From positions 1 through 43,870 of the forward strand of contig JAUZRN010000024.1 in NCBI GenBank assembly GCA_030950375.1: a stretch of 43,870 bases of DNA, read 5' to 3'. Numbering within the stretch: the stretch's first letter is position 1; every line of letters starts with the position of its first letter. Shown in pieces: positions 399-9,549 of this stretch. Both the position numbers and the translations under genes were made by a program. Origin of the DNA: Rhodothermus sp. GTDB taxonomy: Bacteria; Bacteroidota; Rhodothermia; Rhodothermales; Rhodothermaceae. The notes below the pieces were generated by a model. That model saw only the letters and a list, made by a program, of their open reading frames with translations, did not search any database and was not told where the DNA came from.

Positions 399-1364
399 AT
401 GGATCGACGGAGGTTTCTGCATCGGCTGGGCGGATGGATGATTGGAGGCTGGCTGGCCAGCTCGCCGTTCCGGCTATGGAGCCGACCAGCTGAGCCAGCG
501 CCTCTGGTGCGACTTTATTACGTGATGGGGACGCTGGTGCGCTTCGAGGTTTATCACCCGGATCGGATGGCGGCCCGGGACGCTGTCCGGCGCGCCAGTG
601 CGTTGCTGTTTGAGGTCCACCGGCAGATGAGCGTGCAGGAGCCCACGTCGATCCTGAGCCAATGGAATGCAAGTCCTTCGGGGACCGACCTGGTGTTGCC
701 GGAGCTGACGCGGGCAGCCGTAGCCGAAGCGTTGTACTGGCGGCAGGCAACCGGTGGACATTTTGATCCTACGGTGGGCGCCGTCGTGGCTGCCTGGCAG
801 CGGGGACAGCCACCGGTACCCCAGGCAGAACGTCAGGTGGAGCTGCGTGGCGATGGCCGGCTACGTAAATGGGGGGCGGTCGCTTTAGACCTGGGAGGCA
901 GTGCCAAGGGATGGGCGGTGGATCAGGCGGTGGCGGTGCTGCAACAGGCCGGATGCACGGCAGCGCTGGTCAATGCCGGCGGCGATCTGCGGGTGTTCGG
1001 GACGCCTCCAGGAACTCCGGCGTGGACGATCGGGATCCGGCATCCGCTGCGTCCCGATGAGGTGCTGACTACCGTGGCGCTGACCGGCGGCGCGCTGGCG
1101 ACCAGCGGCGACTACGAGCCGACCGGATCCGTGCTGGTTGATCCCCGCGACCTGACGCGCATCCGCTTGAACGGAGGCGTTACGGTCTGGGCCCCTACCT
1201 GTGGCGCTGCTGATGCGCTGGCTACGGCGCTGGCGATTGAGCCCGATCCGTCCTGGCTTCCTGAGATGGCCGGGGTGTTGATAGCACGTCGGGAGACCGA
1301 AGGACTACGCGTGCAGACCTGTCGCTGGTTGTTTGCGCCTAACCCAACCGAAAACCTACCATGA
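399..1364 (+). CDS. apbE: FAD:protein FMN transferase (ApbE family)
   Basis: ApbE enzymes use FAD and Mg2+ to attach FMN covalently to a Thr/Ser of exported target proteins. The 321-residue length fits the family. The N-terminus carries an RRRF Tat-type signal followed by a hydrophobic stretch (about 12-25), so the enzyme probably works outside the cytoplasm. Family landmarks include YVMGT near residue 41, a DPTVG segment near 120, LGGSAKGWAVD near 163-173 and VNAGGDLR near 190. The next gene starts within its final codons (4-nt overlap), and an FMN-binding protein with an SGAT site lies two genes downstream, a likely substrate. The ATG at 399 is preceded by a purine-rich AAAGGAAG. Confidence 0.93.
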   Translation: MDRRRFLHRLGGWMIGGWLASSPFRLWSRPAEPAPLVRLYYVMGTLVRFEVYHPDRMAARDAVRRASALLFEVHRQMSVQEPTSILSQWNASPSGTDLVLPELTRAAVAEALYWRQATGGHFDPTVGAVVAAWQRGQPPVPQAERQVELRGDGRLRKWGAVALDLGGSAKGWAVDQAVAVLQQAGCTAALVNAGGDLRVFGTPPGTPAWTIGIRHPLRPDEVLTTVALTGGALATSGDYEPTGSVLVDPRDLTRIRLNGGVTVWAPTCGAADALATALAIEPDPSWLPEMAGVLIARRETEGLRVQTCRWLFAPNPTENLP

Positions 1365-2767
1365 TACATCGTAACATCGGATGGTTCTTGCTGGTGTTGG
1401 CCCTGGCCTGGCCGGTGCGTGCGCAGGACGAAGGCGAACGTGCCCGTCTGGGAGGCTACGGCGCCATTCGCTTCGAAGTCGCCGACCTGGAGCATCAGTA
1501 CAATACGTTTACTTTCCGTCGTTTTGTGTTGACCACTGATGTGGCCATTACGTCGAACCTACGCTTTCTGTCGGAGCTGGAGCTGGAGCGGTTTCGGGTC
1601 CTGGAGCTGGAAAAGGTGGTCGAAGGCGAAGGAGGAGTGACCGTCGAGCAGGCTATTGAAGGGACAGACCAGTCGGAGATTGCCATTGAACAGGCGTGGC
1701 TGGAGTGGGCGATTGCTCCGGCGTTCCGGTTAAGGGCTGGGGGACTCCTGGTACCGGTAGGACGCTTCAACATTCACCATGATGACAATCAATGGATGTT
1801 TCCGAGGCGGTCGTTGGTAGATCGCGGGGCGCCTGTATTGCCCTCAAAATCGGCCTGGAATGAACTGGGGATGGGGATTGCGGGTGAGATACCGGTCGGA
1901 ATGCAGGGCCTGTTGACCTACGAATTGTATGTGGTCAATGGGATGCAGCTGGATGTGACGGTGGAACAGAAATCGGTTAGTCGTTCGGGTGGGGCCGGTA
2001 ATCAGGTAAGTCAGACGCTTGAATTGAAATTTGAACCTTTTACCGGGACGTTTGGCAATGATACCAAGCAGGCCAAGACCGTGACGGGACGGGTGGCGTT
2101 GAGTCCGTCGCTGGGGGTAGAGCTGGCGCTGTCGGGCTATTATGGCCGCTATACCCCGCAGTATTTACCGGCGGCTTACGTAGGCAGTGTGGGCGTGGAC
2201 TTTCTGTGGAGCCGCGGTCCGCTGGCGCTGGAGGGCGAGTATGTCTATACGACGATGGGAGATGTGCGGGCCGTTGCTCAGGATTTTGCGCGGCGTGTCT
2301 ACAATCAGGAGGGCGCAGCATTTGGGCCGGGTGCGGACGAGGTGCCCCTGGAGAGTGAGGTTGAAATCGAGCTGGTGGGGTTGAGTCGTGCGCGGCAGGG
2401 ATACTGGTTGGAGGTGCGCTATGCCTTTTTCCCCGAGTTTCTACGGGCGACGTTCTTTGGCCAGGGCAGTCAGCCTCTCTGGTATGCCGGGGTGCGTCTG
2501 GAACAGGTGTGGTTTGAGGAACTGCTGCGGGAAGCCACGTTTTCGGCGGGAAGGCTGGAGGTGTTCGAAGTGGCTGATCGCTGGGTAAACCGGGTGACGT
2601 TCGGGCTTACCTATCGTCCTACGCCGCTGGTGGGTTTCCAGTTGGCGTACGAGCTGACCTGGACGAATAAAGGCCGTAGCCTGGGAGACGTGACAAACTA
2701 TTTGATCGCCCAGGGCGGTGAGGATATGGCCCGAGCGTTTATCTTTGGCGTCGTCTTTGGTTTCTGA
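1361..2767 (+). CDS. Outer-membrane beta-barrel (porin-like) protein
   Basis: A 468-residue exported protein with a Sec signal peptide (hydrophobic core about 7-17, cleavage after VRAQ). The body alternates polar and aromatic residues as beta-barrel strands do, and the C-terminus ends in phenylalanine (FGVVFGF), as in many outer-membrane proteins. The segment near 30-65 (GGYGAIRFE, then FTFRRFVL) resembles porin-like proteins of Bacteroidota. The substrate is unknown. It overlaps apbE by 4 nt, so the two are probably translationally coupled. A strong terminator follows, which may make it the last gene of the first transcript. Confidence 0.75.
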   Translation: MIHRNIGWFLLVLALAWPVRAQDEGERARLGGYGAIRFEVADLEHQYNTFTFRRFVLTTDVAITSNLRFLSELELERFRVLELEKVVEGEGGVTVEQAIEGTDQSEIAIEQAWLEWAIAPAFRLRAGGLLVPVGRFNIHHDDNQWMFPRRSLVDRGAPVLPSKSAWNELGMGIAGEIPVGMQGLLTYELYVVNGMQLDVTVEQKSVSRSGGAGNQVSQTLELKFEPFTGTFGNDTKQAKTVTGRVALSPSLGVELALSGYYGRYTPQYLPAAYVGSVGVDFLWSRGPLALEGEYVYTTMGDVRAVAQDFARRVYNQEGAAFGPGADEVPLESEVEIELVGLSRARQGYWLEVRYAFFPEFLRATFFGQGSQPLWYAGVRLEQVWFEELLREATFSAGRLEVFEVADRWVNRVTFGLTYRPTPLVGFQLAYELTWTNKGRSLGDVTNYLIAQGGEDMARAFIFGVVFGF

Positions 2768-2779
2768 GTAGATGGAGCA

Positions 2780-2819
2780 GCCGGGCCGGCGCCTGGAGCG
2801 TGTCGGCCCGGCATTTTTT
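2780..2819 (+). terminator. Rho-independent terminator after the porin-like gene
   Basis: Perfect 9-bp GC stem (GCCGGGCCG at 2780-2788, CGGCCCGGC at 2804-2812) followed by a run of six T. It ends about 12 bp before the FMN-binding protein start, so it may attenuate rather than abolish transcription of the following genes. Confidence 0.8.
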
Positions 2820-2830
2820 CGGCGTGGGCT

Positions 2831-3415
2831 ATGGGGTGCTACGCAGGATTGTTCGTGCTGATACTGGGATGGGGCCTGGTGCCTGTGGCATGGGCACAGG
2901 ACCAGATTTTCCTGACCCCGGAGGAAGCCCGGGCGGAGGTGTTTCCCCGGGGGCATTATTACCAGCAGGATACGCTTCGTTTTACGCCGGAAGAGCTGCG
3001 GCAGGCCCGGCAGGCCCTGCGTCGTGCCGAACCTCTCGATTCGGTGCTGGTTGTGACGCGCGTTTACGATCGGGATGGGAAATTCCTGGGGTATGCCGTG
3101 ATCACTGAGGAGCTGGGCAAGTATCGGCCGATCACCTTCATTGTGGGCGTGCGTCCTGATTTTTCAGTTGAAAAGGTGGCTGTCATGGTGTACCGGGAGT
3201 CGCATGGGGGCCAGGTGCGGCTGCCGCGTTTTCTTTATCAGTATCGGGGAAAAACGCTGCGCGATCCGATTCAGACCTACCGGGATATTGTAAACATCAG
3301 TGGGGCTACCATTTCGGTTAATTCGTTGAACCGGGGCGTCAAGAAAGTGCTGTATTTTGTGACCACGTATTATCGGAAGCATCCGCCTGTGTTGACCTAC
3401 CGACCGCATCGATGA
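2831..3415 (+). CDS. Exported FMN-binding domain protein with flavinylation site
   Basis: 194 residues with a Sec signal (about 1-22, cleavage near AWA-QD). The C-terminal half is an FMN_bind domain ending in the sequence ISGATIS. By analogy with NqrC, RnfG and other ApbE substrates, Thr160 of the SGAT motif is the predicted covalent FMN attachment site. The protein would then be a periplasmic or surface one-electron carrier, fed by the membrane protein encoded next. No strong ribosome site precedes ATG 2831, so the exact start is tentative, but the signal peptide supports it. The stop overlaps the next ATG (ATGA). Confidence 0.85.
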   Translation: MGCYAGLFVLILGWGLVPVAWAQDQIFLTPEEARAEVFPRGHYYQQDTLRFTPEELRQARQALRRAEPLDSVLVVTRVYDRDGKFLGYAVITEELGKYRPITFIVGVRPDFSVEKVAVMVYRESHGGQVRLPRFLYQYRGKTLRDPIQTYRDIVNISGATISVNSLNRGVKKVLYFVTTYYRKHPPVLTYRPHR

Positions 3416-3933
3416 TGTCGTTTTCGCTTTGTTCCCTGCGCGGTACTGCCCGCTGGCTGGTTACCTGGTTTCTTGTGGTGTTAGGAATCGGCTACCTGAC
3501 CGGCATCGTATTCGTTCGGCACACCACGCACAATACGCCCACGGGCGTTGTGCATCAGTTTCGTGGGAACGAAGACGTGCCGCTGGAGGAGGTGCAGGAG
3601 ATCAAGTATCCCAAGAGCCCCTATGAAATGCTCAACATTTTGCATGCCCATATCACGTCGTTTGCGCTCATCTTTCTGGCAGTAGGAGGCCTGTTCCTGG
3701 GCACGTCTGTCTCGGAGCGATGGAAAGCTATCCTGGCGCTGGAGCCGTTTGCGGCCACGCTGGTGTTGTTCGGGGGGATGGCGGCCGTGCGTTTTCTTCC
3801 GGAAAGCTGGGCATGGCCGGCGGCCTGGGTGATGCTGGTAGCCGGTGGCTCCACGTTCGTCTGTCTGTACGTGATGATCGGGCGTATCCTGTGGGAGATG
3901 TGGCAGCCGCGTAACCGTCGTACGGTTGCGTGA
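3412..3933 (+). CDS. Four-helix inner-membrane protein linked to the FMN-binding protein
   Basis: 173 residues: one TM helix (about 14-34), a polar loop starting HTTHNTPTG, and three more TM helices (about 80-98, 107-127, 132-155). The second helix opens with LHAHITSF, and several His residues lie near membrane boundaries and could bind heme or a metal. That is speculation. It overlaps the FMN-binding gene by 4 nt, so the products probably act together, plausibly passing electrons from the membrane pool to the exported flavin. I recognise it only as a conserved Bacteroidota-type membrane protein of unknown function. Confidence 0.7.
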   Translation: MMSFSLCSLRGTARWLVTWFLVVLGIGYLTGIVFVRHTTHNTPTGVVHQFRGNEDVPLEEVQEIKYPKSPYEMLNILHAHITSFALIFLAVGGLFLGTSVSERWKAILALEPFAATLVLFGGMAAVRFLPESWAWPAAWVMLVAGGSTFVCLYVMIGRILWEMWQPRNRRTVA

Positions 3934-4009
3934 AAAAGGGCATTTTGTATCTTAAAAGGCTACCTCTTGCGTGCGAGCGTTTTTCTCACAAAAAAACCTG
4001 AAAAACGCC

Positions 4010-4474
4010 ATGCGGTATCTGTTCACTGTCTTGATGGGGCTGTGGTTGCTTGCAGGTTGTCGACAGCAACCGGCTGAGCAGTCAGCGGCGCCGGCCGAGC
4101 CGCCGTTGCCGGAGGGGCGGCTGGCTGTGGAGGAGCCGGTGCTTTATGCCACGGCTGCCGGTGATAGTGCGGTGGTATCGCTGCGCATCGCCAATGGTAC
4201 GGTTGAGGCCGACACGCTGGTAGGAGCCGAAGCGCCGGCCGTAACGCGCGACGTGGTGCTGCGTGAGGTGGTGGGGGATACGGTGCAGACTACCCGCTCG
4301 GTTTCCTCGATCGTGATTCCGGCACGTTCGCGGGTGGCGGTGCAGCTGGTCCTGCGTAATCTACAGCAGGCGATCGAGCCGGGGCAGATGGTGCTGGTGG
4401 ATTTGAGTCTGGCCCGGCAGGGGCGGTTGCGCGTGCGCGTGCCGGTGCGCGAGGCGACAACTCCCGGCGAATAA
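4010..4474 (+). CDS. Hypothetical lipoprotein
   Basis: The reading frame opens at GTG 3971, but ATG 4010 gives a clean lipoprotein signal (hydrophobic residues 4-14, lipobox LAGC with Cys17), so that start is preferred. The mature part (about 138 residues) has an acidic, Pro/Ala-rich linker and then a beta-rich region with alternating Val residues, possibly an Ig-like or small beta-sandwich fold. I do not recognise the family. It follows the flavin cluster by about 75 bp and may or may not be part of it. Only 7 bp separate it from the convergent M1 peptidase. Confidence 0.6.
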   Translation: MRYLFTVLMGLWLLAGCRQQPAEQSAAPAEPPLPEGRLAVEEPVLYATAAGDSAVVSLRIANGTVEADTLVGAEAPAVTRDVVLREVVGDTVQTTRSVSSIVIPARSRVAVQLVLRNLQQAIEPGQMVLVDLSLARQGRLRVRVPVREATTPGE

Positions 4475-6651: not shown

Positions 6652-7689
6652 ATGGGACAACGAACGCTTCTTCCAGTAGCCCTGCTCCTGTTCGGAATAC
6701 TGGCTGGCTGTGGGCAGGATCAGCAGCGCGGACAGCTAACCGGCTCGGTGCGGATTGACGGCTCCAGTACGGTCTATCCGCTGACCGAGGCGGTGGCCGA
6801 AGAGTTCATGAAACAGTATCCCGGGGTGCGGGTGACGGTGGGCATCAGCGGGACCGGTGGGGGCTTTTCCCGGTTCCTCCGCAGAGAGACAGACATCAAC
6901 GATGCGTCACGGCCAATTCGTCCGGTCGAAGATTCGCTGGCCCGGCAGAGGGGGATTGAATACATCGAGTTGCCCGTAGCCTATGATGGTATTGCGGTGG
7001 TGGTCAATCCCGGAAACGACTGGGTGGAGTGCATGACCGTGGAAGAGTTGCGGCGCGTCTGGGAGCCCAACAGTACGATTACCCGCTGGAATCAGGTGCG
7101 GGCCTCGTTTCCGGACCGGCCGCTGAGCCTGTATGGGGCCGGGACCGACAGCGGCACCTATGATTACTTCACAGCGGCCATTGTGGGGGAGGAACATGCC
7201 AGCCGATCGGACTTCACGGCCAGTGAAGACGACAACGTGCTTGTCCAGGGGGTCAGTGGAGATCCCAACGCCCTGGGATTCATCCCGTTGGCTTACTATG
7301 AGGAGAACACGGACAAGTTGAAGGCTGTAGCGATCGACGATGGCAACCCGGACAATGGGGAAGGGTGCATTCTGCCCAGCACCGAAACCGTGGGCAACGG
7401 GACCTATCAGCCGCTTTCGCGACCGATCTTCATTTACGTAAATGCGGAGCAGGCCGACGATCCGGCGGTCGGAGCGTTCGTCGAGTTTTATCTGCAGCAT
7501 GCAGCCGCTCTGGCCCTGGAGGTAGGTTATGTGCCGCTATCAGCCGAGGCTTACGAGCTGGCCCTTGAACGCTTTCGGAACCGGGTCACGGGTAGTATCT
7601 TTGGAGGTGGTGGTTCGCAGGTAGGGATTAAGCTCGAAGACCTGCTCCAGCTGGAACAGCAGGAAGCCGGAGAAACTGCAGTAGAGTAG
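6652..7689 (+). CDS. pstS: Phosphate ABC transporter substrate-binding protein PstS
   Basis: 345-residue phosphate-binding lipoprotein (lipobox LAGC, Cys20). The phosphate-contacting segment IDGSSTVYP (about 35-43) is present, followed by the [10 protein letters not shown] loop and the [10 protein letters not shown] segment, all typical of PstS in the PstS/SphX lineage. It captures phosphate outside the inner membrane and delivers it to PstCA. First gene of a complete pst operon; pstC follows after 10 nt. Upstream, a TTGACA hexamer at 6594-6599 could be a -35 element; no Pho box was recognised with confidence. Confidence 0.95.
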
Positions 7690-7699
7690 TCCATTCGGT

Positions 7700-8650
7700 A
7701 TGCCTGAGGAGGCAGGTGAACGGGTACGCTGGCGCCGGCAGGGATTTCCAGATCTGACGCCGGAGGCTAACCTGTCGCGGGGGCCCAGGGAGCGACTGAT
7801 GCAGGCGCTCCTTGGGCTCTGTGCCTTGGTAACGGTCTGCACCACGCTTGGCATTGCGGCCATTCTGATCGGGGAGTCCGTGGCTTTCTTTCGCCAGGTC
7901 TCCCTGGCCGAGTTTCTGGGGGATACGAAGTGGACGCCACAGTTTGCTGAGCAGCACTTTGGCATCTGGCCGCTGCTGGTCGGCACGCTGATGATCACTG
8001 TGATTGCAGCCCTGGTGGCCATTCCGATCGGTCTGGCCGCTGCCATTTACATCTCGCAATATGCGCCCGATCGCGTGCGGCGCTGGCTGAAGCCTTCTCT
8101 GGAGCTGCTGGCAGGAGTGCCGACCGTCGTTTATGGCTACTTTGCACTGACGTTCGTGACCCCGCTATTGCAGCGCGTTCTGCCCCAGATGCAGGTGTAT
8201 AATGCGCTCAGCGCCGGGATCGTGGTGGGGATCATGATCATTCCGATGGTGGCGTCCTTGAGCGAAGATGCGTTGCGGGCAGTGCCGCGTTCGCTGGCGG
8301 AAGGGGCCTATGCACTGGGCGCCACGAAGTATGAGGTAGTGCTCCACGTGGTGGTTCCGGCCGCCCTGAGCGGAATCATGGCCAGCTTTATTCTGGCGCT
8401 GAGCCGAGCGATTGGTGAGACCATGATCGTCACGTTGGCAGCCGGTGCGACGCCCCGTCTGACGTTCAACCCGCTGGAATCCATTCAGACCATGACGGCC
8501 TATATCGTGCAGGTCAGCCTGGGAGATACACCGCAGGGAACGGTCGTGTACCAGAGCCTGTTTGCCGTGGGCCTGGTACTGTTTATCCTGACCCTGGGCA
8601 TGAACCTGCTGGCCAATCGGATAATCCTGCGCTTTAAAGAAACCTATTGA
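7700..8650 (+). CDS. pstC: Phosphate ABC transporter permease PstC
   Basis: 316-residue inner-membrane permease of the binding-protein-dependent type with about six TM helices. The cytoplasmic coupling (EAA) loop reads [14 protein letters not shown] in the C-terminal half. With PstA it forms the membrane channel for phosphate driven by PstB. ATG 7700 has a short cytoplasmic leader (about 25 residues) before the first helix region. It overlaps or abuts pstA depending on which pstA start is used. Confidence 0.94.
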
Positions 8651-8655
8651 GTGAG

Positions 8656-9549
8656 ATGCGCGAAGTGCAGCAGGCAGTGGTTGCCCGGTTCGATCTGCGG
8701 CTGGGCCGACGACAGCGCTTAGGGCAGATTCTGGCGGTGATCTTGTTTCTGGCAACAGTGTTCGGGTTGCTCGTATTGACGGCGCTTCTGGTCGATGTGG
8801 TGCGTAAGGGGACGCCCTGGCTGGACTGGCAATTTCTTACGTCCTATCCCTCCCGTAAGCCTGAAGCAGCCGGGATCAAGTCGGCAATTGTGGGATCGTT
8901 CTGGCTCATGGTGCTGACAGCCCTGTTTGCCGTTCCGGTCGGCGTAGGGGCCGCGATCTACCTGGAGGAATATGCGCCGCGCGGCTGGTTCCTGCGGCTC
9001 ATTCAGCTGAACATTGCCAATCTGGCCGGTATCCCTTCCGTGATCTATGGCATTCTGGGGTTGGGCCTCTTTGTACGCTTTTTTGCGTTGGGACGCAGCC
9101 TGCTGGCCGGGGCCTTGACGATGAGCCTGCTGGTCCTTCCCATCATTGTGATCAGTACGCAGGAAGCGTTACGTGCGGTGCCGCAGGGCATTCGGGAGAG
9201 TGCCTATGCGCTGGGGGCTACGCGCTGGCAGGTCGTCTCCAGTCACCTGTTGCCTATTGCAGCCCCCGGCATTCTGACCGGCATCATCCTGGCGCTGAGC
9301 CGGGCCGTCGGAGAGACAGCGCCCCTGGTCATGATCGGAGCGCTGACGTTCGTGGCCTTTCTACCGGGTAGCCTGTTGGATCCTTTTACGGTCTTGCCCA
9401 TTCAGATTTTCAACTGGACGGCCCGTCCTCAGGAGGATTTTCGTGCGCTGGCAGCGGCCGCCATCATCGTGCTCATGGTGTTTCTGTTTTTGATGAACCT
9501 GAGCGCTATCCTGCTGCGAAACTACTACGAACGTCATCGTCCACATTGA
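8656..9549 (+). CDS. pstA: Phosphate ABC transporter permease PstA
   Basis: About 297-residue permease, partner of PstC, with six predicted TM helices and an EAA loop reading [14 protein letters not shown]. The frame extends upstream to TTG 8647, which would overlap the pstC stop; ATG 8656 is preferred as the standard codon. Typical tandem pstC-pstA order. Confidence 0.94.

Follow-up and report, generated by a model that had tools for sequence, protein, structure and literature searches.

A conserved flavin module of Bacteroidota and its probable role in reductive iron assimilation

In known flavinylation systems with a link to iron, the membrane partner is a PepSY-like protein or one of another kind (PMC8238504; PMC11334425), with the FoxB type joining flavinylation and iron-transporter genes in clusters that encode PepSY-like reductases (PMC8238504, eLife 2021; PMC11334425, mSystems 2024). 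Here, we describe a gene set from Rhodothermus, for which our literature search found no description, and propose that it is most likely a system under Fur control that assimilates iron by reducing it. The set encodes ApbE, an outer-membrane barrel, an exported FMN_bind protein and a small membrane protein that we call TM4. It resembles FoxB-type clusters in pairing a putative ApbE-modified carrier with a membrane protein that would feed it, and in its association with TonB receptors and with genes for iron uptake. We draw a distinction between the two in that the barrel belongs to the core set here, and in that TM4 has four helices and one His-x-His motif, with none of 39 members matching an NQR/RNF, NapH-like, MsrQ-like, PepSY-like or DsbD Pfam model at E<=0.1.

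Other described systems share single elements with the module. An FMN_bind protein is also tied to iron assimilation in P19/FTR1 clusters, but these are mostly Gram-positive (PMC8238504), and P19 and FTR1 are absent among the module genes. RnfG and NqrC carry the same domain with an SGAT site, and a profile of the module's FMN_bind family hits RnfG structures (E 3e-15); the module's protein, however, is small, exported and the sole copy, with no Rnf or Nqr partners adjoining. DUF3570, a flavinylated protein with two [S/T]GA[S/T] motifs (PMC8238504), is likewise an unusual partner encoded beside apbE, whereas the module's barrel is Porin_O_P-like and no DUF3570 match was found among 20 members of its family (Pfam).

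The gene set in Rhodothermus

The window, a stretch of 43,870 nucleotides that makes up one entire contig of a 3.03 Mb genome assigned to Rhodothermus through near-identical loci, carries the four module genes consecutively on the plus strand at 399-3933, with a gene for a PCuAC-fold lipoprotein next to them:

349-369, strand not given: predicted Fur box AATTTAGA-CGTAA-TCTAAATT (that is, AATTTAGACGTAATCTAAATT), with its end 29 nt upstream of the start codon of ApbE
399-1364, plus strand: ApbE, FAD:protein FMN transferase (PF02424, 168 bits, E 3e-49), with a twin-arginine MDRRRFL
1361-2767, plus strand: outer-membrane barrel with a signal peptide, distantly porin-like through orthologues
2831-3415, plus strand: exported FMN_bind protein with a signal peptide (PF04205, 30.2 bits against a cut-off of 22, E 7e-7)
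3299-3310, plus strand: flavinylation motif S-G-A-T with predicted acceptor Thr160 (Thr codon 3308-3310); GAT invariant among orthologues
3412-3933, plus strand: TM4, a four-helix inner-membrane protein with four hydrophobic segments and no Pfam or NCBIfam model
3643-3651, plus strand: His78-x-His80 of TM4, invariant among aligned members, close to the end of helix 2 on the periplasmic side
4010-4474, plus strand: PCuAC-fold lipoprotein (LLAGC; PF04314, 39.4 bits), accessory

The first-pass annotation had described four genes in a row, 4-nt overlaps joining the first two and the last two, and an SGAT site with Thr160 in the exported FMN_bind protein. All of these are borne out: the overlaps are real, at 1361-1364 (ApbE/barrel) and 3412-3415 (FMN_bind/TM4), and the motif lies within the FMN_bind gene as listed. 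The span it gave, ending at 4474, includes a fifth gene that it left unnamed, that of the PCuAC-fold lipoprotein. Downstream of the five genes, on the opposite strand, lies an M1 peptidase gene. After it, at 6652-9549, come a gene resembling those of phosphate-binding proteins and two genes for ABC permeases, a group called Pst-like on reading alone.

As in other ApbE flavinylation systems, the transferase is accompanied by an exported substrate bearing [S/T]GA[S/T]. Genome searches found one ApbE and one FMN_bind gene and, each being the sole copy, we take the two to be, almost certainly, an enzyme and its substrate. All 18 aligned orthologues of the FMN_bind protein keep G158, A159 and T160, the last being the predicted site of covalent FMN. 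The barrel is less readily placed, since the window's own copy has no Pfam match; Porin_O_P, Porin_4 and OMP_b-brl are matched by 7-8 of 20 family members, and structure prediction from 3 sequences gave a pLDDT of 30.

TM4 and the linkage of the module across Bacteroidota

Is TM4 a member of a known family? It has no Pfam match above cut-off, a PDB sequence search returned nothing real, and NCBIfam models gave none above cut-off for the TM4 members, with a weak VKOR match in one member only. TM4 is a discrete family, as its profile scores are well separated from background. The earlier description of an uncharacterised, four-helix, His-containing membrane partner stands, and can be extended by the invariant His-x-His: G52, H78 and H80 are the only invariant residues in the 39 aligned members. 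Judged by its hydrophobicity and by the charges of its loops, TM4 has its two termini inside, the loop at 36-78 outside, and the His-x-His close to where helix 2 reaches the periplasm. An AlphaFold2 (AF2) model from a shallow alignment of 4 sequences has four helices at low confidence (mean pLDDT 60), a poor fold model. As for axial histidines on opposing helices that could bind heme, the alignment shows only those of the His-x-His on helix 2 to be invariant.

In light of these features, what might the role of TM4 be? It probably carries electrons from quinol to FMN, with quinol as the likeliest donor because TM4 lacks a cytosolic domain for NAD(P)H. Counting against an electron role, TM4 is without the separated axial histidines seen in PepSY/MsrQ/DUF4405 cytochromes. 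FezC builds its sites through homodimerization (PMC11334425), and by this precedent a TM4 dimer is possible. Another option is that TM4 is itself a permease for Fe(II) or another metal, its His-x-His binding the ion and FMN_bind serving only to reduce iron, with no electron conduit. An ion site would fit the three invariant residues, and FeoB adjoins the module in some loci only; in Rhodothermus, however, FeoB is present and co-regulated, which leaves no need for another ferrous permease, and FMN_bind would be left without an obvious electron source. We regard the permease as unlikely and retain electron transfer as the probable role of TM4.

TM4 was found by profile search in 39 of 394 sampled Bacteroidota genomes (about 10%), and a broader profile raised this to 40 of 394, one match being a fragment at a contig edge. 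A narrow-pattern scan of genome contigs gave three relatives only, and a plasmid scan gave none. Gene order was assessed by scanning neighbourhoods with profiles of the module proteins at 44 TM4 loci from 43 genomes (L075 and L077 belong to one genome). FMN_bind adjoins TM4 on the same strand at 44/44 loci, the barrel is present at 42/44, and ApbE lies within 3 kb at 19/44. The barrel profile was built with L036, making the barrel match at this locus circular, and the matches at L037 and L071 lean on it. With such counts, the linkage of TM4, FMN_bind and barrel is far beyond chance. This was the neighbourhood search that the first-pass annotation had named as one of its checks, and the unlinked homologues that would have spoken against a conserved set did not appear; its view of a flavin-carrier module with its own barrel, distinct from the nqr, rnf and nosR arrangements, is likewise upheld. 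The usual order is barrel-FMN_bind-TM4, with ApbE last if present, and Rhodothermus has ApbE first. In other Rhodothermales (L036, L037, L071) TM4 precedes FMN_bind; an EB_dh-domain gene adjoins TM4 at L037, and L071 has a small downstream protein with a CxxCH motif.

The operator and its likely regulator

The site at 349-369 is a perfect 8-nt inverted repeat. For Riemerella anatipestifer, the Fur box is reported as ATTTAGAATTATTCTAAAT, and gel shifts showed binding of Fur to several of the promoters in which a box had been predicted (PMC5609570); feoAB of this species carries the box and is Fur-regulated (PMC10434265). The window site equals this box at 14/14 arm positions. The two regulons are alike in their box and in its presence at feo genes; no flavin module appears in the Fur regulon passages drawn on from either paper.

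A search of the Rhodothermus genome with TTTAGACNNNRTCTAAA at <=1 mismatch found five sites, against 0 for the reversed-pattern control. Apart from that of the module, they precede feoA-feoA-feoB, which holds the genome's only high-scoring FeoB, a TonB receptor gene, a cysteine desulfurase gene diverging from an unknown gene (L081 1501-1521), and a gene for a 97-aa hypothetical protein (L082 1501-1521). The module has, in other words, the marks of a Fur-regulated iron operon: a promoter box, and the same site at feoAAB and a TonB receptor. The box before ApbE is kept in four other Rhodothermus, the desulfurase and 97-aa hypothetical boxes are both conserved in several genomes of the genus, and the intact sites examined in seven Rhodothermus genomes fall at the same five loci. 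One Rhodothermus genome (G001) is without TM4 and has no box before an ApbE, with the feo, desulfurase and TonB-receptor boxes remaining.

Which protein would read this box? The genome has one Fur gene and two DtxR-domain matches, the better of which adjoins a Mn/Zn-type binding protein. Given this neighbour and the identity of the box with a Fur box, DtxR/MntR is disfavoured and Fur is the preferred regulator in Rhodothermus.

Beyond the genus, TTATTTAGANNNNNTCTAAATAA occurs within 300 nt upstream of the barrel gene (of ApbE in Rhodothermus) at 31/37 loci, with p<=0.01 when compared with dinucleotide shuffles; L068, which is among these, has a weak match with 5 mismatches. Loci without the box in the barrel promoter often have it ahead of an extended operon. 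At L038 the module is joined to Fur-FeoA-FeoB, with the box before fur-feoA-feoB-barrel-FMN_bind-TM4-ApbE; a Fur gene is joined to the module at L049, with the box before fur; and an FbpA-like binding protein is joined at L058, L067 and L068, with the box before its gene at the last two. FeoB is joined to the module at L069 and L070. At these two loci, and at those of the other Rhodothermales (L036, L037 and L071), no box was found in the module or extended-operon promoter, and many flavobacterial loci have the box only, with no iron gene adjacent; both points count against the iron reading. In addition, four other whole genomes contain 1 to 4 boxes each at one mismatch (control 0), including sites before fur-feoA-feoB (genomes G155 and G272), feoB, TonB receptors and the module.

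The box at TonB receptors also bears on whether the module serves another iron source or metal, such as heme or siderophore handling, or copper. The receptors, together with the PCuAC-fold gene downstream, lend this some plausibility, but that gene is limited to Rhodothermus among the loci compared and encodes a mature chain without any His. For lack of the His/Met copper ligands of a PCuAC copper chaperone, the lipoprotein is probably not one, and we reject a copper function drawn from this ligand-free, genus-limited gene. Reduction of heme or siderophores, in turn, would still be iron acquisition, differing mainly in substrate. We consider this alternative improbable, a little more so than a TM4 permease, and keep to reductive iron assimilation.

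A proposed route for iron reduction

Read directly from the sequence are the gene content, the sole ApbE/FMN_bind pair, the invariant GAT and His-x-His, the conserved set and the box common to feoAAB, and on this footing we propose the following route. When iron is scarce, Fur would leave 349-369 and the operon would be expressed. ApbE would link FMN covalently to the FMN_bind protein in the periplasm, at Thr160, and TM4 would draw electrons from the membrane quinol pool and pass them to this FMN, with His78 and His80 probably holding a cofactor, either heme b or a metal. The FMN would then reduce Fe(III) that has come in via the barrel, whether free or in a chelate, and the resulting Fe(II) would be imported by FeoB, the co-regulated and sole clear ferrous importer.

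The same parts could be arranged for respiration, with quinol electrons delivered to an external acceptor, a metal oxide or other, for energy. Barrel, periplasmic flavin carrier and membrane protein have the right anatomy for this, and a small CxxCH protein adjoins the module in L071; yet a Fur box common to feoAAB and TonB receptors indicates control by iron starvation, and the five genes include no multiheme cytochrome. We judge respiratory transfer the least probable of the alternatives. The first-pass annotation had offered either electron flow to an external acceptor such as a metal or uptake through the barrel. The Fur box and the iron-gene neighbours favour the second, as assimilatory uptake of iron, and weigh against the first.

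More tentatively, and with rather less confidence than in the iron role itself, we suggest that TM4 may be a further class of transmembrane conduit: a minimal four-helix His-x-His quinol oxidiser, feeding a flavinylated ferric reductase under Fur control and spread through Bacteroidota.

With these findings, a gene set that recurs throughout a large phylum gains a function that can be tested, a membrane family not described before is named and given its invariant motif, and a specific operator connects flavinylation with iron starvation. If the proposal is true, Bacteroidota have a reductive iron-uptake route in which a covalent flavin works with a minimal membrane partner, and how small membrane proteins feed extracytosolic flavins would become accessible to experiment.
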